A stretch of DNA of 36,093 nucleotides from NCBI GenBank assembly GCA_009694095.1, contig SHVV01000008.1, positions 1 to 36,093 of the forward strand, in the 5' to 3' direction. The DNA is from Alphaproteobacteria bacterium (GTDB lineage: Bacteria; Pseudomonadota; Alphaproteobacteria; SHVV01). This document shows positions 324 through 24,601 of this stretch, piece by piece. The notes beneath the pieces were generated by a model, which saw nothing but the letters and a program-made list of their open reading frames with translations, ran no database searches and was not told the origin of the DNA. Each line of letters begins with the position of its first letter. Positions within the stretch are counted from its first letter, which is position 1. Position numbers and translations under genes: made by a program.

Positions 324-1022
324 TTAGTTGATGGTTTTGACGACCCGATCAATATCATCGAACATCAACATGAACATATCGAGCGTCTCATCGACGGTCC
401 TGATGACGAGCCGCCGCTCCGCTTCGGTTTTTGCGAATTGGTCGAGTAGCTGGAAGCCGATGCCCGAGTGATCTTCGTCGGCGTGCTGGTGAACGATGAA
501 AAACTCGAGCGCGTGATCGTCGAGGCCGTACTTGTCGCGAAGAGCCTTGTAGCGACTCGCGCCATCCTTGGGCACCGGCGCTTCGCCCGCGAGCATGTGG
601 GCCGACACGCCTTCAAGGAAGGTCTTGCCGCATTTCTCGGAGAAGAATGCGCGGAATGCGAGAGCGCCGGCACAGTACGGCGTGTTCCACATTTCGTCGT
701 GGCTGATCCCGAGCGCCTCCCCGAACTGAAGGTAAAGGCTGTAGTGACCTTTGCCGTTGGCGTAGAGCCGTCCGGTGCCCTCTTCATACACCACCTCCGC
801 GATCTTGGCGCGCCACGCCGGATCGGGACAGACCACGTAGAGACGGCCGTGGTAGTTGTGGTTGTGCATCGGAATGATGCCGTTTTGGCGAATCAACATC
901 TTCAACTGGTTGCGCGAATGTTCACCGTTGTAGAGCTTTTGCCAGACCGGATGTTTGTAGAACGGTTTTTTCTTGTGCAGTTGTTCGATTTCCGCGAGGA
1001 CGGTGGCGTTGTCGAGAGGCAT
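324..1022 (-). CDS. TenA/PqqC-fold, HO-like diiron oxidase-type (iron-containing redox enzyme) protein, copy 1
   Basis: 232 aa; YEEGTGRLYANGKGH and HQHADEDH (H-x3-D-x2-H) motifs as in HO-like diiron enzymes; RBS GGAG upstream; paralogous to 23903..24601. Confidence 0.8.
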   Translation of the reverse strand: MPLDNATVLAEIEQLHKKKPFYKHPVWQKLYNGEHSRNQLKMLIRQNGIIPMHNHNYHGRLYVVCPDPAWRAKIAEVVYEEGTGRLYANGKGHYSLYLQFGEALGISHDEMWNTPYCAGALAFRAFFSEKCGKTFLEGVSAHMLAGEAPVPKDGASRYKALRDKYGLDDHALEFFIVHQHADEDHSGIGFQLLDQFAKTEAERRLVIRTVDETLDMFMLMFDDIDRVVKTIN

Positions 1023-3394: not shown

Positions 3395-4696
3395 ATGGTT
3401 CACCCACAGGCCTATCAGTGGCCGGAGAAAGACTTCAGCCGCGTTCCTTACTCGGTCTTCGTCGATCCCGAGATTTTCACCATCGAGCAAGAACGAATTT
3501 TTCACGGCCCGGTCTGGTCGTACGCGTGCCTCGAAGCAGAGATCGCTAATCCAGGCGACTTTCTGACGACGTACATCGGCGATACCCCGGTGGTTGTGGT
3601 GCGAGCCGATGACCGATCGCTGCATGCATTCGTCAACCGTTGCGCGCACCGCGGCACGCTCTTGGTGCGATCGACGCACGGCAATGCGCGCGACTTCACC
3701 TGCGTCTATCATCATTGGTGTTATGACCAGCGCGGAAAATTAATCGGCATTCCCTTTCTTCGCGGGCTCAAAGGCAAAGGCGGCATGCCGCCCGAGTTCA
3801 AACTAGGCGACCATAGCCTGCGGACGCTTCGCACGGCTGCCTATCGCGGCGTTGTGTTCGTCACATTCCGCGACGATACCGAGAGCCTCCACGACTATCT
3901 CGACAGCCCGATGCGTCGCTATCTCGACGACATCTTCGCCAAACCGATCGAGATCATCGGCTACGTTCGCCAGCGCATCCCGTGCAACTGGAAGCTCTAT
4001 TACGAAAACCTGCTCGACGACTATCATGGTGTCTTGTTGCACAAATTCCTGGTGACATTTGGGCTGTCGCGCGCAACGCAGAAGGGCGGGTCGGAGATGG
4101 ACCGGCGCGCCCGGCATCGAATCGTTTATGTCATTCCAAGCGAAGAAGACACGGTCGGAACCCAGCAGGGTTACGCCGAGACGACGTTGCTCGACGAAGG
4201 GCTTTACCTTCGCGATCCGTCGATCAACGAGTACCGCGAAGAAATGAACGACCGGCGCGCGGTGCTTCTATGCGCTTTTTTCCCAAATTTGCTGGTCCAG
4301 CGCCTCTCGAACACGCTCGCCACCCGGCAAATCCGCCCGCGCAGCGCAAAGGAGTATGAGCTGTATTGGACATTTTTCGGATACGCGGACGACGATCCAG
4401 CGATGCAGTTGTTGCGCAAGAAACAGATTAATCTCGTCGGTCCGGGTGGACTAGTTTCGATGGAAGATGGTGAAGCTGGCCGGCTGCTGCAGCTCGGGAT
4501 CAACGGCGACTTTGCCGATGCCCATTCGATTCTAGCGATGGGGGGGCGTGGCGAAATTCCGCTCGTGGGTCATGATCTTTTGACTGAGAGTTCGGTTCGT
4601 GGTTTCTGGCGCTACTGGTGCGACCTTACCGGCATCGGTCCGCAAACTGGGATCTCCGCCCCTGGCGGCGTGCACCGCGCCGCCGCCGCGGAGTGA
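3395..4696 (+). CDS. Rieske aromatic ring-hydroxylating oxygenase alpha subunit (AndAc / salicylate-5-hydroxylase-like), RO1
   Basis: Rieske motif CAHRGTLLVRSTHGNARDFTCVYH; mononuclear Fe site NLLDDYHGVLLH (D-x2-H-x4-H); GLKGKGGMP. Confidence 0.93.
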   Translation: MVHPQAYQWPEKDFSRVPYSVFVDPEIFTIEQERIFHGPVWSYACLEAEIANPGDFLTTYIGDTPVVVVRADDRSLHAFVNRCAHRGTLLVRSTHGNARDFTCVYHHWCYDQRGKLIGIPFLRGLKGKGGMPPEFKLGDHSLRTLRTAAYRGVVFVTFRDDTESLHDYLDSPMRRYLDDIFAKPIEIIGYVRQRIPCNWKLYYENLLDDYHGVLLHKFLVTFGLSRATQKGGSEMDRRARHRIVYVIPSEEDTVGTQQGYAETTLLDEGLYLRDPSINEYREEMNDRRAVLLCAFFPNLLVQRLSNTLATRQIRPRSAKEYELYWTFFGYADDDPAMQLLRKKQINLVGPGGLVSMEDGEAGRLLQLGINGDFADAHSILAMGGRGEIPLVGHDLLTESSVRGFWRYWCDLTGIGPQTGISAPGGVHRAAAAE

Positions 4697-4775
4697 ATTC
4701 TCAAGTTGGCGCACATAATCGATTTCAAAATATCGATTTTTTATTTAACCTGTATTGGGAAAGGGAGGAACTTTT

Positions 4776-5798
4776 ATGACAAGTCGATTGATGACCGTAC
4801 TTTGTTCTGGCGTGGTCGCTGGCGTGGTTGCGTTGGCGGCACCGGCGAACGCGGCGGGGCCGTGCGAAGCCGCGGCCGAAACCAAGAAAATCACCGTGAT
4901 GGCCTCATGGATTCCCAATCTCTACGATTCGGGACCGCTGTGGGTCGCCAAGCTCGCCGGTTACTATAAGGATGAGGGGATCGAGGTCGAGATCATCGCC
5001 CCGGCGAACCCGGCCGATCCAATCAAGCTCGTGGCGCGAAATCGGGTTCAACTGAGCGAGACCTATGTTCCCGAGGTGATGATTTCGCGTGACACCGGTA
5101 TTCCGGTGGTTGCCGTGGCAACGACACTGCGTGAACTGGAGTCCGGACTGATGTCGCTCGCGGAGACCGCCATCGACCAACCGTCCGCTTTGAAGGGCAA
5201 GACGCTCGGCATCGGGCCCAAGCTTGATGCACAGGCTTTCCTTGATACCGTGTTGACGACCGGCGGACTGACTCGAAAGGACGTCAAGATCGTCGATCCC
5301 GGTTTCGGCCATATCCCCTACACGCTCGAGAAAAAGGTCGATGCAACGCACGCGCTGCTGAACTTCGAAGTGGTTCTCGGCAACGAGATTCTCAAGAAAC
5401 AGGGCAAGCCGGTGCTTCGATTCATGCCCTACACGAGCGCAGGCGTTCCGAAATTCCACTATCAGTTGCTGGTCGCCAATGAGCAGTGGGCGAAGAAGAA
5501 CGCCAACACCGTTTGCCGTTTCTTGCGGGCATCAATGCGCGGAGTCAAAGACTATGGCAAGCACGAACAGGCCGCGCTCGACTACATCATCAAGGCGAAC
5601 AACATCATGACGCCCGAAGAGCACAAGATCATCTCGGGCGCCGCGCAGGCCGGCTGGACGGGAAAGGACGGAACGATTTTCCGGATGGACCCGAACTACT
5701 GGAAGGCGGCCCAAGAGTGGGCGCTCAAGTACAAGATCATTACGCTTGGGGCCGATGTTGCAAGCTACTTCACTAACAACTACATACCCAAGAACTGA
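4776..5798 (+). CDS. NMT1/THI5-like ABC substrate-binding protein
   Basis: RBS AAGGGAGGA before ATG 4776; signal peptide; KKITVMASWIPNLYDSGPLWVAKLAGYYKDEGIEVEII. Confidence 0.87.
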   Translation: MTSRLMTVLCSGVVAGVVALAAPANAAGPCEAAAETKKITVMASWIPNLYDSGPLWVAKLAGYYKDEGIEVEIIAPANPADPIKLVARNRVQLSETYVPEVMISRDTGIPVVAVATTLRELESGLMSLAETAIDQPSALKGKTLGIGPKLDAQAFLDTVLTTGGLTRKDVKIVDPGFGHIPYTLEKKVDATHALLNFEVVLGNEILKKQGKPVLRFMPYTSAGVPKFHYQLLVANEQWAKKNANTVCRFLRASMRGVKDYGKHEQAALDYIIKANNIMTPEEHKIISGAAQAGWTGKDGTIFRMDPNYWKAAQEWALKYKIITLGADVASYFTNNYIPKN

Positions 5799-5815
5799 CC
5801 AATAGCTTGCTTCCA

Positions 5816-5840
5816 CCAGCGCGGACAAAGACCGCGCTGG
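5816..5840 (+). terminator. Hairpin CCAGCGCGG-ACAAAGA-CCGCGCTGG (first of two tandem hairpins)
   Basis: Perfect 9-bp inverted repeat just downstream of the SBP stop codon; no T-tract directly after. Confidence 0.55.
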
Positions 5841-5854
5841 AACCCGCGGATCGC

Positions 5855-5887
5855 CGCCTCGTCGCTCACCCGAGCGGCGAGGCGTTT
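5855..5887 (+). terminator. Second tandem hairpin CGCCTCGTCGCTC-ACCC-GAGCGGCGAGGCG followed by TTT
   Basis: 13-bp arms with one non-Watson-Crick (G-T) pair, 4-nt loop, then TTTCGTCTT. Confidence 0.6.
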
Positions 5888-5993
5888 CGTCTTCGCGGGG
5901 GACGTCTAGGTGTCACCGGGCGCCGGGGATAGACGAACGAGGGGTCCCGACGTACCCTTGCTGGAACGCGCCGAGGAAATGAGGGACCCACCT

Positions 5994-7256
5994 ATGCAGA
6001 ACACGTGGCACGGACTGACGTGGCCGGCGGCAGACTACAGCCGCGTTCCGTATGGCGTGTTCACCGACCAAGCGATCTTCGCCGAGGAGCAAGAGCGGAT
6101 TTTCCGCGGTCCGGTTTGGATCAATGTCGCGCTCGAAGCCGAGATCCCAAACGTCGGCGACTACCGCGCGTCGTTTGTCGGCGAGACACCGGTCGTCGTC
6201 GTCCGCGCCGACGACGGCAATGTCCATGCCTTCGTCAATCGCTGCGCGCACCGCGGCACCGTGTTGGTGCGGGACCTCTCCGGCAACGCCAAGGACTTCA
6301 CCTGCGTCTATCATCACTGGTGCTACGACACCAAGGGCAACCTGATCGGTGTACCGTTCCTGCGCGGCCTCAAAGGCAAAGGCGGCATGCCGCCCGACTT
6401 CAAGATGTCCAACCACGGGCTAAGAACTCTTCGGGTTGCGGTCTATCGCGGCGCCGTGTTCGTGACCTTCCGTGCCGATGCCGAGAACTTCGAAGATTAC
6501 GCCGATCCGCTGTCGCTCAAGTTTCTCGATCGCATGTTCCACAAACCGATCGAAATCATTGGCTACATGCGCCAACGCATCCCGGCCAACTGGAAGCTCT
6601 ATCTCGAAAATCTGAAAGACGCGAACCATGCCGGCCTGTTGCATCAGGTGCCGACGACGTTCGGGTTGTGGCGCAACACCCAAGAAGGCGGTTCATCGAT
6701 GGACAAGAAGCGCCGCCACGAAGTCCACTACGGCTATCTCGGCACCGATACCGACGAGGACGCGGCCGCCGGCTACGCGGGCTTCACCCCTTACAACGAT
6801 CAGCTCAAGCTCAACGATACATCGATCGTCGACTATCGAAATGAGTGGAACGACAATATTTCGTCCGAATTCCTGTCATTCTTCCCGTCTTCGGTGTTCC
6901 AGCAGTTTTCGAACACCATCGCGACCCGCCAGGTGCGGCCGCGCAGCGCGACCGAGTTCGAATTGTTCTGGACCGTGTTCGGCTATCAGGACGACGACTC
7001 GACGCTCCGGATGATGCGGTTGAAGCAAAACAACCTGGCCGGTCCCGGCGGCGTCGTGTCGATGGAAGACGGCGAAGTTGGACGCCTCGTGCAAATGGGC
7101 ATCAAACGCGAGCGCGATTCGCACTCGATAATCGAAATCGGCGGCAAAGGTCCGATCGAGGATCAAACGACCGTCATTACCGAAGTCGCGGTCCGCGGGT
7201 TCTGGAAGAACTACTGCGAACTAATGGGTGCCCCGGTCGCACAGGCCGCCGAGTAG
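5994..7256 (+). CDS. Rieske aromatic ring-hydroxylating oxygenase alpha subunit, RO2 (paralogue of RO1)
   Basis: Start ATG 5994 aligns with RO1 start; CAHRGTVLVRDLSGNAKDFTCVYH; NLKDANHAGLLH; GLKGKGGMPPDF. Confidence 0.93.
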   Translation: MQNTWHGLTWPAADYSRVPYGVFTDQAIFAEEQERIFRGPVWINVALEAEIPNVGDYRASFVGETPVVVVRADDGNVHAFVNRCAHRGTVLVRDLSGNAKDFTCVYHHWCYDTKGNLIGVPFLRGLKGKGGMPPDFKMSNHGLRTLRVAVYRGAVFVTFRADAENFEDYADPLSLKFLDRMFHKPIEIIGYMRQRIPANWKLYLENLKDANHAGLLHQVPTTFGLWRNTQEGGSSMDKKRRHEVHYGYLGTDTDEDAAAGYAGFTPYNDQLKLNDTSIVDYRNEWNDNISSEFLSFFPSSVFQQFSNTIATRQVRPRSATEFELFWTVFGYQDDDSTLRMMRLKQNNLAGPGGVVSMEDGEVGRLVQMGIKRERDSHSIIEIGGKGPIEDQTTVITEVAVRGFWKNYCELMGAPVAQAAE

Positions 7257-15567: not shown

Positions 15568-16977
15568 TTAGGCAAGCGGCGGCCTGTAGTCGGCCCACGG
15601 CCGCGCTTCTTCGAACGCAGCGGCGGCGCGAAAGATGTCGACCTCGCTGTTGATGCGAGCGACCATTTGCAGCCCGACCGGAAGCTTCTGGGCGGTGAAC
15701 CCTGCCGGAATCGACGCCGCCGGCTGACCGGTCAAATTGAACGGGTAGGTATAGTAAACCCACGACACGACGTTACGGTCGAGTCCGTCGAGAAACGGCG
15801 GCAAGTTCTTGCCGACATCAAAGGCCGCGACCGGAAGCGTCGGCGAAAGGAGAATGTCGTAGTTCTCGAAGAACAACCGCGTTTTTTCTCGCAATTCGTA
15901 GCGGCGAAAAACATTGACGTAGTACTGCTCAAGCGTCTGGTTGAGCGCCTGCGACAGAATCTCGACCACCGCCGGGTCGAGCAGATGACGCGATTTCTCG
16001 AGCACCGGCTTCAGCCGCGTACCGATGCCAGCATAGAACTCGCTCGAAAACAGGTCGACCGGATCTTGGTCGAATACTTTTTCCACGTGCTCGACCGTGC
16101 AGCCGAATTCGGCAAACGCCTGCGCGGCGCGCTCGGCGATCGCGACAACCTCGGGATCGGGCTTGGCGTAGCCGAGCGTGGCGCTCCAAGCGACCCGCAA
16201 CCCTTTGGCGCCCTGGTCGCACGCCTTGAGGAAATCGGGGGTCTTTTCCGCGACCGAAAACGGATCGCGGCTGTCGTACCCGGCCTCGACCATGAGCAGA
16301 AGCGCCGCGTCCCGCACGGTTCGGGCGAGAGCCCCGGTGTGGGCTAGCGATGGCGCGGCGCTGACCGGATACATTGGCACACGGCCGAACTGCGCTTTGA
16401 TGCCGAACAAACCGGTCAACGAGCAGGGAATGCGGATCGAACCGCCGCCGTCGGTAGCGACCGCGAACGGCGTCACGCCGGCAGCCACGCTGGAAACCGC
16501 GCCAGCCGACGAACCGCCCGAGGTCTTAGCGGTGTTCCACGGATTGCGCGTGATCCCGGTCAGCGGCGAGTCACCAACCGCTTTGCAGCCGAACTCGCTT
16601 GCGGTCGTCTTGCCGACGATACAGGCGCCGGCGGCCTTGATTCGTTCGACAACCGGCGCATCGATCGCCGCGATGTTCTCCGCCATGGCGCGTGACCCCG
16701 TGGTGAGTTTCACTCCTTTAACCGGGATTACGTCTTTGACCGAAATCGGCAGACCGTCGAGCAGTCCGCGCTTCTCCTTCTTCATGATGCGGTCTTCGGC
16801 CGCGCGGGCGGCGTCCAACGCGAGTTCGGCGGTGACGGTGACGAAGCTATTGAGCTTGGGCTCCGTCGCGGCGAGGCGGTCGAGCGATGCGCGCACGATT
16901 TCGACCGGCGAGATTTCTTTGCGCTCGAGCGCGCCTTTGAGCGCGAGCGCGCTCGTATAGGTCACGTTGTCGGCCAT
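15568..16977 (-). CDS. Amidase-signature family hydrolase, tandem paralogue
   Basis: Start ATG 16977; GGSSAGAVSSVAAGVTPFAVATDGGGSIRIPCSLTGLFG; GLPISVKDVI. Confidence 0.94.
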   Translation of the reverse strand: MADNVTYTSALALKGALERKEISPVEIVRASLDRLAATEPKLNSFVTVTAELALDAARAAEDRIMKKEKRGLLDGLPISVKDVIPVKGVKLTTGSRAMAENIAAIDAPVVERIKAAGACIVGKTTASEFGCKAVGDSPLTGITRNPWNTAKTSGGSSAGAVSSVAAGVTPFAVATDGGGSIRIPCSLTGLFGIKAQFGRVPMYPVSAAPSLAHTGALARTVRDAALLLMVEAGYDSRDPFSVAEKTPDFLKACDQGAKGLRVAWSATLGYAKPDPEVVAIAERAAQAFAEFGCTVEHVEKVFDQDPVDLFSSEFYAGIGTRLKPVLEKSRHLLDPAVVEILSQALNQTLEQYYVNVFRRYELREKTRLFFENYDILLSPTLPVAAFDVGKNLPPFLDGLDRNVVSWVYYTYPFNLTGQPAASIPAGFTAQKLPVGLQMVARINSEVDIFRAAAAFEEARPWADYRPPLA

Positions 16978-17045
16978 CGTTCGTTCTCCTGAAGTGGTTG
17001 CGGCGCCGCGTGGGCGCCGCACTCCGCGATGCCAAAATCGACTCG

Positions 17046-17696
17046 TTATTCGGCAGCAACCTTTTTCCCGAGGCGGGGCTTCAAAGCCGCAATCAGCTCG
17101 TCGCGAGTGTAAAGGTCAGCGTATTTCTGCTGCATGTCGAAGAGGCCGGCATCATGCGGCGCGATCGCCCGGTCGCCGACGCAGTCGGTAGGAACGATTG
17201 GGCGGTAGCCATAGCCGAGCGCGTCGACCACGGTGGCTCGAACGCAGCCCGACGTGACGGCGCCAGTCACCACCAGCGTATCGACACGAAGACGGGCGAG
17301 CCAGCTCGAGAAATCGGTTTGGAAGAACGCCGAAGCATTTCGTTTGCGGACCATAAGTTCGCCCGGCCGCGGCGTCAGTTCACGCACCACGAATCCGACC
17401 GGATTGTCCTCGGTCAAGATCTTGAGATTGGGCACCTTGGCCGTCAGCAGATTGCCGTCGGAGCCGTCCTCGGCAAACACATAGCGCGTATAGGCAACCG
17501 GCAGGCGATGCTCGCGAAAGAAGGCAAGCAGACCGACGGTCTTCTCGACCGCCGCGTGGATGTTGCCGCCGCCAAACAGCTTGGGGTCGTCGAAGGCGAC
17601 GACGAAGTCAACGATTACCAGCGCCGGCGCTTCGCCGATCCCCAGGCTCTTGCCAAACCCCTGCTGCTTAAAAATCGCCGTTTCTGCGGTCGCCAT
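17046..17696 (-). CDS. Isochorismatase-family cysteine hydrolase (N-carbamoylsarcosine amidohydrolase / maleamate amidase-like)
   Basis: APALVIVDF, VVTGAVTSGCVRATVVDALGYGYRPIVPTDCVGDRAIAPHDAGLFDMQQKYADL; RBS GGGAG. Confidence 0.9.
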   Translation of the reverse strand: MATAETAIFKQQGFGKSLGIGEAPALVIVDFVVAFDDPKLFGGGNIHAAVEKTVGLLAFFREHRLPVAYTRYVFAEDGSDGNLLTAKVPNLKILTEDNPVGFVVRELTPRPGELMVRKRNASAFFQTDFSSWLARLRVDTLVVTGAVTSGCVRATVVDALGYGYRPIVPTDCVGDRAIAPHDAGLFDMQQKYADLYTRDELIAALKPRLGKKVAAE

Positions 17697-17823
17697 GTCG
17701 AATCTCCCTTTGTGCGATTATTGGTAGCTCCCGCCACTGCTCGCACGTGACCAGTGAGCGCATTGGAAATCTAGCGTCATTGTTGCCCAGTCCGGTACAT
17801 CACTGCAACCACCAATGGTCGGC

Positions 17824-18855
17824 TCAGCTTCGCGGGCGCCGCTTCGGTGACGGCCAAGAGAATTCACGACCCCCCGTCAACCCGCCCGGCCGCAACACCA
17901 AGATCAGCAACATAACGATGCCAATCACCACTTCTTGGACGCCCGGCGGGCTTTTGATCGACAAGCCGCCGACGACGAAACCAAGTTCGACTTGGCGCAG
18001 AAGTTCCTGCAGGGTCGCGAGAGCCACTACGCCAATGACGGCGCCAGCCAAGCTTTTCATGCCACCAATGACCAGCATCGCCAACGTGATGAACGTCATG
18101 TCGAGGTAAAAATTGTTGATGGTGATGACGCCAATGTTGTGGGCGTAGAGCACGCCTCCTAACCCGATAAACGCCGCCGATATCGTCCAAGCGATCAGCC
18201 GTTCGCGCGGTACGTTGACTCCAACCGCCTTGGCGGCGACTTCATCTTGCCTCGCGGCTCGAAGCGACCGACCGGAACGCGAACACTGATAAGCGTATGC
18301 CGCTGCGATCGTGATCGCGGCGCAGCCGAGCGCGACCCACATGTCGACGTAGCGCGGAATGCCGACCACCGAATTGGTGCCAAGTGTCACCCGGTCCCAG
18401 TTGCCGTACACCACGTTGACGATCGCCAGCACCGCAAAGGTTGCGATCGAAGCTGCGATACCCGAGAGCCGCATGATCGGAAAGCCGATGATCGCGGCCA
18501 GGATCGTCGCGAACACGACCGAGGAGACCGCCGACGGAAACAGATCAAAGGTGTTGTACCGCAGGAAATCCGGCAGCCCGGACATGTTGATCGGCTTCAA
18601 TTTCGGGCAGCAGGTCTGCCAGACGCTCGCATAGGCGCCGATTGCCATGAATGATATCGAGCCGAACGACATCACGCCCGAGTTGCCGACGAAGATGTAA
18701 AGCCCGACGACGACCACGACCTTTACCAACGCGTCGGTGACGACCCGATTGAGAATCCCGCCGCCGAATAACTCGGCAAGCGCGACGATCACGAGCAGCA
18801 ACGCCCAGAGAGCAATGACCGGCCAGATACGTTCGAGTGGTGAGGCGCCGGCCAT
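17824..18855 (-). CDS. livM: Branched-chain amino acid-type ABC transporter permease (LivM)
   Basis: SGRSLRAARQDEVAAKAVGVNVPRERLIAWTISAAFIGLGGVLYAH; start ATG 18855 overlaps LivH stop (TGATG). Confidence 0.93.
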   Translation of the reverse strand: MAGASPLERIWPVIALWALLLVIVALAELFGGGILNRVVTDALVKVVVVVGLYIFVGNSGVMSFGSISFMAIGAYASVWQTCCPKLKPINMSGLPDFLRYNTFDLFPSAVSSVVFATILAAIIGFPIMRLSGIAASIATFAVLAIVNVVYGNWDRVTLGTNSVVGIPRYVDMWVALGCAAITIAAAYAYQCSRSGRSLRAARQDEVAAKAVGVNVPRERLIAWTISAAFIGLGGVLYAHNIGVITINNFYLDMTFITLAMLVIGGMKSLAGAVIGVVALATLQELLRQVELGFVVGGLSIKSPPGVQEVVIGIVMLLILVLRPGGLTGGREFSWPSPKRRPRS

Positions 18856-19769
18856 CACACGCGCTCCGTGATCGCCCGTACTTGGATGAGGCCCGCCGGC
18901 CGCCACAATAAGATCGCGATCACCAGGAGATAGACAAAGGCATCGCGAAACTGGCGGATTTCGACCGGCAGGACGACTTGCAGGACGACGCTCGCAAAGC
19001 CGACGACGAACCCACCGACAGCAGCCCCCACCAGGCTACCCATGCCGCCGATGACGGTCGCGACAAACGCAATCAGCACCAACGGAAGCCCCATGCGTGG
19101 CGCGAGCATACCGGTGCGAGCGAGGAAGAGAAGCGATACCGCCGCGGCCAGCACGCCTGAGAGGGCGAAGGCGACAGCGATCACAGTGTTGGCCCGCACG
19201 CCCAATAACCGCGCCATGCGAAAATCCTCGGCGGCGGCGCGAATTTGGATGCCGTAGCGCGTGCGCTTGAGGAACAGGGCGAGCGAGACGATCAGCGCGA
19301 GCGTGACTGCGATGGTAAGGATTTCGAGCTTCGGAATACGCAGCTCGCCGACCATCACTTGCTCCGCGAGGTTACTGCCAATGTCGACGGCTTTTGGCCG
19401 GCCGTCATAAATCAGCAGAGTGATGTACTGCAGGGCATAGGCTAGTGCGAACGACGCCACCAACAGCGTCGGCGGGTCGGCGCGCCGGAGCGGCCGGAAC
19501 ACGATGAATTCGGTGACGACGGCGAGCGCTACAACGATCACGACGACGGCCGTCGACATGACGGCCCAGTGCCAAGCGCCGATGTAGAGCGTGGCGATGG
19601 CATTGGTCGAGGGCACGATGATCGCGTAAGCACCAATGGTGATGAAGTTGGCGTGGGCGAAATTAATCAGGCGCAGGACCCCGAAGAGGAGCCCGACGCC
19701 AAGCGCGGTCAATGCATAGAGGCTGCCCAGCGAAACCGCATCGATAAAGTTCTGCAAAAGCGTGATCAT
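18855..19769 (-). CDS. livH: Branched-chain amino acid-type ABC transporter permease (LivH)
   Basis: SLGSLYALTALGVGLLFGVLRLINFAHANF; RTRYGIQIRAAAEDFRMARLLGVRANTVI. Confidence 0.94.
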   Translation of the reverse strand: MITLLQNFIDAVSLGSLYALTALGVGLLFGVLRLINFAHANFITIGAYAIIVPSTNAIATLYIGAWHWAVMSTAVVVIVVALAVVTEFIVFRPLRRADPPTLLVASFALAYALQYITLLIYDGRPKAVDIGSNLAEQVMVGELRIPKLEILTIAVTLALIVSLALFLKRTRYGIQIRAAAEDFRMARLLGVRANTVIAVAFALSGVLAAAVSLLFLARTGMLAPRMGLPLVLIAFVATVIGGMGSLVGAAVGGFVVGFASVVLQVVLPVEIRQFRDAFVYLLVIAILLWRPAGLIQVRAITERV

Positions 19770-20491
19770 CAGGCGGCCCCGCGGTCGAATCCGAAATAGG
19801 CTGCTTCAAGCTCGGCCGACCCTTTGAGGGCGACAACGGTGCCCGATAGTTGCACTCGGCCGTCACGCATCACATAGACACGGTCGGCGACATCCATCAC
19901 GCGGTCGAGGTTCTGTTCGACGATCAACAGAGTCATTCCGGCCTCGCGCAGGCTTCGCAATAGCTCGTAAACCAGATCGACGTTCTTGGGCGCGAGCCCG
20001 AGCGAAGGCTCATCGACGAGCATGAGCTTCGGCCTGGTCAGCATGCCGCGCGCGATCGCCAGTATCTGCTGCTCGCCACCGGAGAGCCGTCCGGCTGGTG
20101 AGCGGAAACGCTCCTTGAGGATCGGAAAACGATCGAGGAGGCTTTCAAGATCCTTGGCCGCGGCGTCGCGGTCGCGGCGAATGTAGGAAGCAACACGCAG
20201 GTTTTCTTCGACCGTCAGTGTACCGAAGATTCGCCGCCCCTCCGGCACGAGCGAGATGCCGAGGCGAGCCGTATCCTCGCTCGACCGACCGGCCAACGGC
20301 CCGCCTTCGAATAGAAGACGGCCCCTGCTCGGCGTCAACTCGCCGGCGATCGCCAGCATCGTAGTCGACTTGCCGGCGCCGTTCGGCCCGACGACGCAGA
20401 CGATTTCGCCAGCGGCGACGTTGATCGATATGTCGCGTACGGCCGGTAAGCGGCCGTAGCGGACCTCGAGACGCTCGACATCGAGTATCAA
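19769..20491 (-). CDS. livF: Branched-chain amino acid-type ABC transporter ATPase (LivF)
   Basis: Walker A GPNGAGKST, signature LSGGEQQ, LMLVDEPSLGLAP; TTG start overlapping LivG stop (TTGA); longer ORF to 20704 is not needed. Confidence 0.93.
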   Translation of the reverse strand: MILDVERLEVRYGRLPAVRDISINVAAGEIVCVVGPNGAGKSTTMLAIAGELTPSRGRLLFEGGPLAGRSSEDTARLGISLVPEGRRIFGTLTVEENLRVASYIRRDRDAAAKDLESLLDRFPILKERFRSPAGRLSGGEQQILAIARGMLTRPKLMLVDEPSLGLAPKNVDLVYELLRSLREAGMTLLIVEQNLDRVMDVADRVYVMRDGRVQLSGTVVALKGSAELEAAYFGFDRGAA

Positions 20492-21264
20492 CGTCGCTGC
20501 TCCCGAACGCCGAGGTAAGCGCGGATCACTTGAGGATCGGACTGGATTGCCGCCGGCGGTCCAGCGGCAATCGTCTTGCCAAAGTCGATCACCTGGATGC
20601 GGTGGCACACCGTCATAACGACCCGCATGTTGTGTTCGATGAGTAACACCCCGCAGCCGAATCGTTCGGGGATTGCCGCGACGGTTCGCATCAACTGGTC
20701 GCATTCGACGTCGTTCAATCCTGCGGCCGGTTCGTCGAGCAGGACCCAGCGCGGCATCGCCGCAAGCGCGCGCGCAATACCGACTCGGCGCTCATCGCCA
20801 TAGGAGAGCGCATCGGTACGCTCGTCGGCGCGAGCGGTGAGCCCCAGCCAATCGAGAACCTCGGCTGCCCGGGTCCGCGCCTTGCGCGCCGACAGTCCAA
20901 CACCGATCGCCGCGACTTCAAGGTTCTCGCGGACCGTAAATTCTTTGAATAAGCGGCCATTTTGAAAGGTGCGGATCACGCCGGCGCGGGCGAAACGATG
21001 CGGCTGCCACCCCGTGCTGTCGGCATCGACGACCCAGATCGTGCCCTCGCTCGGCACTTGAAATCCGGTTAGGACGTTGACGAGCGTGGTCTTGCCGGCG
21101 CCGTTTGGCCCAATCAATCCAAGAACCTCGCCTCGTTGCAATTCGAGGCTGATACGGTCGACCGCGGTCAGTCCTTCGAAGCGGACGCTAACAGCGCGCG
21201 CTGCCAACGTAGATGGCCCCGGGTTTTCGCGCGCTGCGCCGCGTGTCATTCCTGAGGGTTCCAC
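20488..21264 (-). CDS. livG: Branched-chain amino acid-type ABC transporter ATPase (LivG); ATG at 21249 is an alternative start
   Basis: GPNGAGKTT, LSYGDERRVGIARALA, WVLLDEPAAGLN. Confidence 0.94.
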   Translation of the reverse strand: MEPSGMTRGAARENPGPSTLAARAVSVRFEGLTAVDRISLELQRGEVLGLIGPNGAGKTTLVNVLTGFQVPSEGTIWVVDADSTGWQPHRFARAGVIRTFQNGRLFKEFTVRENLEVAAIGVGLSARKARTRAAEVLDWLGLTARADERTDALSYGDERRVGIARALAAMPRWVLLDEPAAGLNDVECDQLMRTVAAIPERFGCGVLLIEHNMRVVMTVCHRIQVIDFGKTIAAGPPAAIQSDPQVIRAYLGVREQRR

Positions 21265-21316
21265 TGTTTAGTGTCTCTCTGTTATGATCCCCATATTCAT
21301 TCCAGGGAGGAAGGAC

Positions 21317-22498
21317 ATGCGCAAGATTTTTGTCACGGGCGTCGCTTTAGCGACGTTGTTGAGCGCGGGGGGCGCGACGGCAGCCGATTTCACAATCGGC
21401 TTCGCGATCGCCCAAAGCGGTTGGATGACAGCCTACGACGGCGATTCCTCGAAGGGCGCCCAGATCGCCATCGACGACATCAACGCCAAGGGCGGAATTC
21501 TCGGCAATCAGATTAAGGCCGTGTATGCCGACACCAAGTCCGATCCTGCTCAAGCCGGGATCGCAGGCGAAACGGTGCTGAAGCAAGGCGCGAAATACAT
21601 GATCGCGAGTTGCGACTTCGACATGGGCGGCCCAGCCGGTATTGCATCGCAAAAGGCCGGCGTGCTCGTGATGTCGATCTGCTCCGGCTCACCAAAATGG
21701 GGCCCGGTCGGTATCGGCGAACTCGCCTTCGCGGCCGGTCACGCTGCGCAGGTCGATGGCTATTTGATGGCGGAGTGGGCGTTCACCAAAAAGAACTGGA
21801 AGCGGGCCTATATGCTCCGCGACACCTCGCTCACTTACACGCGCGCGCAATGCGCCGGGTTCGAGGAGCGGTGGAAGGAGTTGGCCAACGCCGCGCCCGG
21901 CGTCGATACCTTCAAGAATGACGATCCCTCGGTCGCGACCCAGATCACGCGGCTCAAGGCGCTCAATCCACAACCCGACGTGATCTTCATCTGCACCTAT
22001 GCCCCGGGCGGGCCGACGGCTCTCCGACAGATTCGCGCGGCTGGCATTACCCAACCGATCATGTCCGGTCTTGCCATGGACGGCGCCTATTGGCTCGCTG
22101 GCGCCCCAGGGCTCTCCAACTTCTACGTCCCGTCCTACGGCTCGATCTTCGGCGACGATCCGTCGGCCGACGTGCGCGCCTTTATGGACAAATACAAGAA
22201 GAAGTTTGGCCAGGCGCCGGCGACCTCGCTCGCCATTCTCGGCTATCGCTCGGTACAGAAGTTCGCCATAGCGGCCGAAAAAGCAAAGAGCGTCGATTCG
22301 CAAGCCGTGCGCAAGGAGCTCGAGAAGTTCTCCGAGCAACCGGTGCTCGGCGGCGTCGTGTGGTACGACGACAAGGTTCATATTCTCGATCGCACCCGCG
22401 TGCTCGTCATGCAAGTCCAGGACGGGAAGATGTCGGCGACCAACGAGTACATTCAGTCATCGAAGCGAGTGCCTTACGACGTACTGTTCAAGGAATAA
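21317..22498 (+). CDS. Branched-chain amino acid-type ABC transporter substrate-binding protein
   Basis: RBS GGGAGGAAGG; signal peptide MRKIFVTGVALATLLSAGGATAA; FTIGFAIAQSGWMTAYDGDSSKGAQIAIDDINAKGGILG. Confidence 0.93.
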   Translation: MRKIFVTGVALATLLSAGGATAADFTIGFAIAQSGWMTAYDGDSSKGAQIAIDDINAKGGILGNQIKAVYADTKSDPAQAGIAGETVLKQGAKYMIASCDFDMGGPAGIASQKAGVLVMSICSGSPKWGPVGIGELAFAAGHAAQVDGYLMAEWAFTKKNWKRAYMLRDTSLTYTRAQCAGFEERWKELANAAPGVDTFKNDDPSVATQITRLKALNPQPDVIFICTYAPGGPTALRQIRAAGITQPIMSGLAMDGAYWLAGAPGLSNFYVPSYGSIFGDDPSADVRAFMDKYKKKFGQAPATSLAILGYRSVQKFAIAAEKAKSVDSQAVRKELEKFSEQPVLGGVVWYDDKVHILDRTRVLVMQVQDGKMSATNEYIQSSKRVPYDVLFKE

Positions 22499-22516
22499 AT
22501 AACCTCAAAACACCAA

Positions 22517-22547
22517 GGGCCGCGCCAACCGGCGCGGCCCTTTTTTT
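22517..22547 (+). terminator. Rho-independent terminator
   Basis: GGGCCGCGCC-AACC-GGCGCGGCCC-TTTTTTT, perfect 10-bp stem, 18 nt after stop codon. Confidence 0.95.
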
Positions 22548-22563
22548 ATGCCCGGCGTACCGG

Positions 22564-23739
22564 TTATTCGGCGGCGGCGCGGCCCGCGTCGAACATCCGA
22601 TCGAGGTAGTCGTTGAGCGTGTGATGAATCGCCTTTTCCAGTCTGATCGTCGGGCCGGGGACGAAATTGCGAGAGTTCACGCCGTTTTGCAGCGAGCGCA
22701 TCATATCGGCGTCCTCAGCCGCGACGAGGCGGATGAAGTCGGCGATGATCTTGTTCTTACCAGCGAACGCCGGCTGCTCGAAGAATTCGGTCGGGTACTG
22801 GGTCCAGATCGTGATCCGCGTCTTGTCGGGCGCCAACGGATAGCTGATCCACGGTTGAATCATGTCCTGTCGGCCGAACACATTGAAGGTCGGCCTGATG
22901 AACACCGTGAACGCCCAGTACTTCGACGCTTCACGCCGCCACGGCATCGGACCAAACAGAGTTTCGCCGTCCGGAGCCATCGTCAGGCTTTCATACTCGG
23001 CGTGGTATCGACCACCGGGCCCTAGTTCGAACGGGTAATCCTCCATCGTGAAGTGTTTGGCGAACGACGTGCCGTGAATCGCCTTGGCGTGATAGATATC
23101 CATCAGATTCTCGGGCACGAACTTCCAGTTGCACTCGATGTCGAAGGTGTACTCGTCACCGATCCTGGTCTTCTCCGGATGGAGATACTGCTCGGCCTTG
23201 CGTACGCCCGGATCGTCGAGAAACGCTGACAGGCTGATCGAGTTGGGATCGAAATTGACGAAGACATAGCCGCACCACGTGTCGATCTTGACCTCCGGCA
23301 GACGGCAGCTCTTGAAGTCGTATCCGGGGGTTTCCTTGTTGAAGGGAGCGCCGACGAGCTTGCCGTCGAGGTCGTAGAGCCACGCGTGATAGGGGCAAGT
23401 GAACTGCTTGGTATTGCCGCCACCGACAGGCGCCACTTCGACCCCGCGATGGCGGCACACGTTGGCGAAGGCCTTAAGCTTATTGTCCTGATTGCGGCAA
23501 ATGATGATCGGCTCGCCAGCGATCCGCATCGCCCGATAATCGCCGACGTTGGGATATTGCTCGACGCGGCCAACGCAGAGCCAATCCTTCATGAAAATCT
23601 TGTCGATTTCCTCGGCATAGATTTCCGGTGACGTATACAGGTATCCCGGCAAATGCCGAGCGTGGGCGAGTTCTCGACGCGTGGAAGAAAACTCACCGGA
23701 CTTGGTCGACTGCTGCTTGTTTTCCGTGGTTCGAGCCAT
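22564..23739 (-). CDS. Rieske oxygenase alpha subunit, RO4 (paralogue of RO3)
   Basis: CRHRGVEVAPVGGGNTKQFTCPYHAWLYD; NLMDIYHAKAIH. Confidence 0.93.
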   Translation of the reverse strand: MARTTENKQQSTKSGEFSSTRRELAHARHLPGYLYTSPEIYAEEIDKIFMKDWLCVGRVEQYPNVGDYRAMRIAGEPIIICRNQDNKLKAFANVCRHRGVEVAPVGGGNTKQFTCPYHAWLYDLDGKLVGAPFNKETPGYDFKSCRLPEVKIDTWCGYVFVNFDPNSISLSAFLDDPGVRKAEQYLHPEKTRIGDEYTFDIECNWKFVPENLMDIYHAKAIHGTSFAKHFTMEDYPFELGPGGRYHAEYESLTMAPDGETLFGPMPWRREASKYWAFTVFIRPTFNVFGRQDMIQPWISYPLAPDKTRITIWTQYPTEFFEQPAFAGKNKIIADFIRLVAAEDADMMRSLQNGVNSRNFVPGPTIRLEKAIHHTLNDYLDRMFDAGRAAAE

Positions 23740-23902
23740 TTCACCCTCTCGTCAGTAGAACCGTCGCCGAGCACCAATATTACCGCTTGTCGCGAACGCC
23801 ATCAAAAAGGACGCACCCTGATCCACGCCGATTGCTCTTCGGCGCCCCAGGTCATCCGCGCCGTGAAGCCCAGGAGCAACTCCATTCCCCGCCGCATCTC
23901 GA

Positions 23903-24601
23903 TCAATGGATTTTCTTAACGTAGCGGTGGATGTCGTCGAACATCAAATTGAACATGTCTATGGTGTCCTCGACGGTCCGGATCACCAACCGGCGATCAT
24001 CTTCGGTGCGCGCGAACTCGTCGAGCAGTTTGACGCCGATGCCGGCATGATCCTCGTCGGCGGTTTGGTGCACGATGAAAAACTCAAGCGCGTGGTCGTC
24101 CAACCCATAGACGTCGCGGAGCGCTTTGTAGCGGCTCACGCCGTCGGTCGTGACGGGCGCTTCGCCGGCCAACATATGGGCGGCGACCCCTTCAAGAAAG
24201 CTCTTGCCGCAGATCGAGCTGAAATAGGCGCGAAATGCTAACGCTCCGGCACAGTAGGCCGTGTTCATCATCGCTTCGCGGCTGATACCGAGCCCATCGC
24301 CTAATTGCAGCCAAAGCTCGCCGTGCGCCTTGCCGTTGGCGTAGAGCCGCCCGGTGCCTTCTTCGTAGACCACCTCGGCTATCATTGAACGCCAGATCGG
24401 ATCGGGGCAAACGACGTACAGGCGTCCATGGTAGTTATGATTGTGGAGCGGAATGATGCCGTACTGGCAAATCAAAGCTTTCACCTGCTCGCGGCTCAAA
24501 CGCCCGGCGTAAAGATCGAGCCAGAGCGGGTGCTTGTAGAACGCCTTCCGGCGGTGCAGTTCAGCAACTTCGGCGAGGACTGCTTTGGCGTCGAGCGGCA
24601 T
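23903..24601 (-). CDS. TenA/PqqC-fold HO-like diiron oxidase-type protein, copy 2
   Basis: Start ATG 24601 gives 232 aa, same length as copy 1 and alignable without gaps; YEEGTGRLYANGKAH, HQTADEDH. Confidence 0.8.
   Translation of the reverse strand: MPLDAKAVLAEVAELHRRKAFYKHPLWLDLYAGRLSREQVKALICQYGIIPLHNHNYHGRLYVVCPDPIWRSMIAEVVYEEGTGRLYANGKAHGELWLQLGDGLGISREAMMNTAYCAGALAFRAYFSSICGKSFLEGVAAHMLAGEAPVTTDGVSRYKALRDVYGLDDHALEFFIVHQTADEDHAGIGVKLLDEFARTEDDRRLVIRTVEDTIDMFNLMFDDIHRYVKKIH

Follow-up and report, generated by a model that had tools for sequence, protein, structure and literature searches.

The HDO2-RO4 locus

The window, a stretch of 36,093 nucleotides from an alphaproteobacterial MAG, carries a candidate heme-oxygenase-like (HO-like) dimetal oxidase gene, HDO2, next to the gene of a Rieske oxygenase (RO), RO4. 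A preliminary description had proposed that the two genes form one transcription unit and that their products act successively on one substrate. Does this arrangement represent a conserved two-enzyme pathway or a local neighbourhood of genes? The following features of the window were considered.

324-1022, minus strand: HDO1, 74% identical to its paralogue HDO2; an NMT1/Thi5-like binding protein (1101-2099) lies alongside
15568-22498: amidase B, isochorismatase-like hydrolase and LivM/H/F/G (minus strand) and LivK (plus strand), assigned by Pfam and synteny
22515-22542: strong bidirectional terminator-like hairpin of 12 pairs between the convergent RO4 and LivK
22564-23739, minus strand: RO4, Rieske non-heme iron oxygenase alpha subunit, 391 aa, PF00355 and PF00848
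23740-23902: gap of 163 bp between HDO2 and RO4, holding a weak terminator-like hairpin (23829-23810, minus strand)
23903-24601, minus strand: HDO2, candidate HO-like dimetal oxidase, 232 aa, ATG start, PF14518

Metal ligands and predicted fold of HDO2

HDO2 matched PF14518 (Haem_oxygenas_2) with 65.7 bits at a cut-off of 28.9 and also passed the cut-off of PF03070 (28.6 vs 22 bits). The motifs reported in the preliminary description, YEEGTGRLYANGKAH and HQTADEDH with the HxxxDxxH ligands H178, D182 and H185, were verified. In an alignment with 33 relatives (16-74% identity to HDO2, including distant HDOs at 16-23%), the only fully invariant columns were those of the putative metal ligands E81, H93, E147, H178, D182 and H185, and because of this invariance the motifs are not a product of chance. 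The six columns are exactly the 3H/3C ligand set of HDOs, i.e. three histidines and three carboxylates on core helices (reviewed in PMC13108848). They align with E81, H88, E142, H174, D178 and H181 of CADD.

The overlay of an AlphaFold model, which had been suggested as a check, yielded a CADD-type fold with the complete ligand set. The AF2 model (pLDDT 91.4, pTM 0.89) has the heme-oxygenase-like helical fold, and its best match in the PDB was CtCADD (TM 0.85/0.91, 1.8 Å), followed by PqqC, FlcD, BesC, UndA and HrmI. By sequence, the closest solved relatives are the CADD-type 4-aminobenzoate synthases 9pj4 and CtCADD. HDO2 is thus a good candidate for a 3H/3C HO-fold dimetal oxidase and, judged from sequence and model, would add an uncharacterised subfamily to the known 3H/3C HDOs. 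In the proposed mechanism, the six residues would hold two Fe(II) ions (probably Fe2), at which O2 would bind to give a peroxo intermediate. The latter could then oxidise a small imported substrate by desaturation, C-C cleavage or N-oxygenation.

CtCADD (Chlamydia trachomatis CT610; PDB 1rcw, 8va9) resembles HDO2 in the HO-like fold and in the six ligand positions, but the two share only ∼22% identity, HDO2 has five additional residues between E81 and H93, and the context is uptake and catabolism for the HDO2 subfamily compared with folate for CtCADD. The CADD/PabS 4-aminobenzoate synthase is marked by the sacrificial Tyr27 and by Lys152. Neither has an equivalent in HDO2, where Trp27 and Arg157 occupy these positions; the column of Arg157 contains Arg, Leu, Ile, Met or Val, never Lys. 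CADD is the nearest system to HDO2 both by fold and by NCBIfam model (TIGR04305), which would fit a self-sacrificing 4-aminobenzoate (pABA) synthase. However, the model score of 79.1 bits is far below the cut-off of 200, and ∼14 paralogues in one genome are ill-suited to a single housekeeping role. With the Tyr/Lys pair missing and the score below the cut-off, a function of HDO2 as pABA synthase was rejected as very improbable.

The fold is also shared with PqqC and TenA (TM up to 0.89). PqqC is metal-independent, whereas HDO2 keeps the six metal-ligand residues, and assignment to PqqC fails at the NCBIfam level as well (TIGR02111, 38.4 bits vs a cut-off of 240). UndA, BesC, HrmI and MboA have the 3H/3C set and the fold in common with HDO2; the structural matches among the first three are 12-18% identical to it. 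These enzymes work in natural-product pathways, in contrast to the importer/hydrolase loci of the HDO2 subfamily (PMC13108848, PMC13185094).

A separate observation concerns Trp27 of HDO2 and HDO1, at the site of Tyr27 in CADD: it is invariant in 29 close-subfamily sequences.

RO4 belongs to a conserved importer/amidase block

The assignment of RO4 as a true Rieske oxygenase was confirmed. The Rieske (PF00355, 73.0 bits) and Ring_hydroxyl_A (PF00848, 86.2 bits) domains both scored well over their cut-offs. The Rieske motif CRH-x17-CPYH starts at residue 95, and the iron motif is complete (D214-IY-H217-AKAI-H222, D-x2-H-x4-H), so that both motifs and the Ring_hydroxyl_A domain identify an alpha subunit. 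Relatives in the PDB are biphenyl dioxygenase and carnitine monooxygenase. GbcA is the best NCBIfam model and CntA is among the top PDB matches (glycine betaine/carnitine monooxygenase type), but with 139 bits at a cut-off of 670 for GbcA, family assignment is impossible. Unlike these systems, RO4 is linked to a Liv importer and an amidase. All relatives of RO4 in PLSDB were below 60% identity.

An orthologue of RO4 with 81% identity is present in the sister species G001 (contig C110, L093). There, RO4 and LivK are again convergent, and LivGFHM, a gene of 336 aa, the isochorismatase-like hydrolase and amidase B come next, which is essentially the arrangement at 15568-23739 of the window. No HDO is located upstream of this orthologue; the position is taken by another gene, a fragment without Pfam match. 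RO4 thus stands apart as a Rieske oxygenase whose conserved block also comprises a Liv-type importer, an isochorismatase-like hydrolase and an amidase.

In the window, RO4 follows HDO2 on the same strand with no gene in between, as the preliminary description had it, and the strong hairpin at 22515-22542 ends both RO4 and LivK. Co-transcription of HDO2 and RO4 is possible in this genome because they are same-strand neighbours with nothing between them. The claim of one transcription unit goes further than that: for genes of one operon, 163 bp is a long distance, and the weak terminator-like hairpin lies within it.

Conservation of the HDO-RO pairing

The HDO1/HDO2-type genes of both sister species (L037, L038; 74% and 72% identity to HDO2) adjoin an FAA hydrolase gene. 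In the gene tree they form one clade with HDO1 and HDO2 (100/100), in which HDO2 alone has an RO as neighbour. Which of HDO1 and HDO2 is nearer to the sister copies is left undecided by the tree; pairwise identity favours HDO1 (79 vs 74%). With an RO4 orthologue lacking an HDO and HDO1/2-type genes lacking an RO in two sister species, a conserved HDO-RO operon is not borne out.

The neighbourhood was surveyed for 37 close-subfamily HDOs (27 surveyed loci plus the loci of the window's own genome), some of which are orthologues in related species and hence not independent. The immediate non-HDO neighbour was an RO in 1 of 37 cases, HDO2 itself, and a same-strand transporter gene in 15; within two genes, the numbers rose to 4 and 23, respectively. 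These counts are approximate, as the gene calls came from a simple program based on codon usage and the transporter classes from clusters Pfam-labelled on representatives. In the three genomes of the genus, a large Rieske protein was found within 1.5 kb of an HDO four times, compared with ∼2.1 expected (Poisson P ∼0.17). Proximity of ROs to HDOs in these genomes is therefore at background and not significant. Co-occurrence of HDO homologues with ROs, on which the preliminary description had let its proposal stand or fall, is largely absent, and successive action of HDO2 and RO4 on one substrate is left unsupported. Orthologue synteny, together with the counts of neighbours, led us to reject the HDO-RO pair as a conserved operon.

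Of the other RO-HDO associations, the strongest is found in two sister species (L048, 7605-10699; L050, 7732-10699): an AndAc-like RO lies there with a glyoxalase-family gene, both divergent from the HDO. In L012, the distance is ∼5 kb. In L051, an HDO, an isochorismatase, a PF11723-type RO and a hydrolase share one strand, with the HDO two genes from the RO. Each of these cases has its own RO and its own HDO. A tblastn search of PLSDB returned no plasmid-borne relatives of HDO2.

Origin of the HDO2-RO4 neighbourhood

Behind the supposed two-enzyme pathway there is probably no more than chance adjacency, because RO4 lies in a different conserved block and has no HDO neighbour in the sister species. 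We consider it likely that HDO2 is a 3H/3C oxidase of uptake-and-catabolism loci, that RO4 is separate, and that the two were brought side by side by local rearrangement in a genome rich in ROs and HDOs rather than by a fixed pathway; HDO2 would then act independently of RO4. The compared genomes are fragmentary MAGs. The source MAG itself is 63% complete in 92 contigs, and in the sister species another gene occupies this position, as would be expected if the junction were an assembly error. Such an error is nevertheless improbable, given that GC content is unbroken across the junction and neither gene is disrupted.

An operon of recent origin and specific to the lineage, in which HDO2 and then RO4 convert one substrate as originally suggested, would agree with the shared strand and uninterrupted order of the two genes and with the second same-strand case in L051. 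The pair is missing in the sister species, however, even though the remainder of the RO4 block is retained there, and an RO adjoins just one of the surveyed HDOs. Moreover, differing HDOs neighbour differing types of RO, and the gap of 163 bp contains a weak terminator-like hairpin, all of which makes this operon unlikely. Electrons could also pass from the Rieske cluster of RO4 to the dimetal site of HDO2, whether in place of RO4's own iron or in addition to it, a thought encouraged by the small Rieske-type ferredoxins that adjoin other HDOs (see below). RO4 retains its own full mononuclear iron motif, though, and its orthologue has no HDO neighbour, so that we give this electron route hardly any credence.

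Usual neighbourhood of the HDO subfamily

The transporter neighbours of close-subfamily HDOs belong mostly to an NMT1/Thi5-type ABC importer. In L010, L039, L044, L045, L061 and L063, between one and three HDOs are enclosed by genes for its binding protein, BPD_transp_1 permease and/or ATPase. The binding protein also adjoins the HDO in L011, L055 and L058 as well as HDO1 of the window. Further neighbouring genes encode nitrile hydratase (L011), FAA hydrolase, glyoxalase-family proteins, a luciferase-like monooxygenase, TauD and amidohydrolases. The simplest reading is that the subfamily provides oxidases for small imported compounds, with a substrate that probably differs between paralogues.

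Two loci, L010 (2028-5123) and L039 (9893-11431), have two or three close-subfamily HDOs within an NMT1/permease/ATPase ABC importer operon. In L011 (3759-5623), the HDO directly adjoins a fused nitrile hydratase and an NMT1-type binding protein. AetD is a nitrile-forming HDO, and by analogy it is conceivable that the HDO of L011 forms a nitrile that is subsequently hydrated. Among the papers searched, none linked heme-oxygenase-like proteins with nitrile hydratase and diiron.

Association of HDOs with Rieske-type ferredoxins

Small Rieske-type ferredoxins were found beside HDOs, distant ones and one of the window subfamily, at the following loci.

L014 (contig C79 of the window's genome, G000), 5318-6394: HDO and ferredoxin
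L097 (C54 of G001), 4613-6512: HDO (4613-5293) and Rieske ferredoxin (5345-5680)
L099 (C1 of the third genus genome, G002), 3879-5776: HDO and ferredoxin
L098 (C16 of G001), 4740-5815: Rieske-type ferredoxin of 99 aa directly before a distant HDO
L057, 9854-10832: HDO of the window subfamily (47% identity to HDO2) and, 22 bp on, a Rieske-type ferredoxin of 100 aa

In all three genomes of the genus (L014, L097, L099), an HDO of 226 aa is followed after 49-60 bp by a Rieske-type ferredoxin of 111 aa and then by a third same-strand gene of 249-273 aa, which in L097 encodes a beta-keto acid cleavage enzyme (BKACE). Two of the ∼4 small Rieske proteins of G001 lie ≤300 bp from an HDO; the chance is <1% for each, which corresponds to a rough, post hoc P of ∼0.0003. 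The HDO of L057 has a TctC-type binding protein upstream; its MAG is labelled betaproteobacterial (Bordetella parapertussis), a label that we do not trust. Among 379 genomes of the phylum, an L057-type HDO with ferredoxin was found in its own genome and in one weak match only. Because of this narrow spread, the ferredoxin link rests on few lineages. The wider sampling gave no further HDO-ferredoxin examples, and no redox partner gene is located beside HDO2.

On the basis of gene neighbourhood, a Rieske-type ferredoxin may serve some HDOs of this radiation as dedicated redox partner, a proposal to which we assign slightly less than an even chance. A dedicated redox partner is a more interesting lead than the HDO-RO pairing. 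MboA/MboB is described as perhaps the first HDO to be characterised along with a redox partner of its own, and MboB is a flavin/Fe2S2 reductase (PMC13185094), different from the Rieske-type ferredoxins that adjoin HDOs here. If true, the association would represent a new mode of electron supply to HDOs, unlike MboB and in a catabolic instead of a biosynthetic setting. None of the papers searched linked heme-oxygenase-like proteins with a Rieske-type ferredoxin.

Abundance of HDOs and Rieske proteins in the lineage

A genome search gave 14-15 HDO matches in the window's genome, 63% complete as noted, and 22 in G001, compared with 0-3 in other sampled relatives and 5-7 in a few other alphaproteobacteria. 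Large Rieske proteins numbered 26, 70 and 23 in G000, G001 and G002, respectively, and Rieske domains 32 in G000 and 77 in G001. Such a joint expansion of HDOs and Rieske proteins in one alphaproteobacterial MAG lineage is unusual.

Functional validation exists for about a dozen HDOs, mostly from natural-product pathways (PMC13108848). The HDO-RO adjacency, a local arrangement, matters little in itself; a lineage with 14-22 HDO matches and 26-70 large Rieske proteins (two members), in which HDOs are often found by ABC importers and hydrolases, matters more. A catabolic HDO radiation, in part equipped with Rieske ferredoxins of its own, would extend the range of uses known for the fold and would raise a question of electron supply that is open to direct testing.

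Each of five Defluviicoccus MAGs had 74-80 Rieske matches. In Defluviicoccus (L040-L043, L062), an HDO, a RidA-like protein and a second distant HDO form a run on one strand that is kept in five MAGs.
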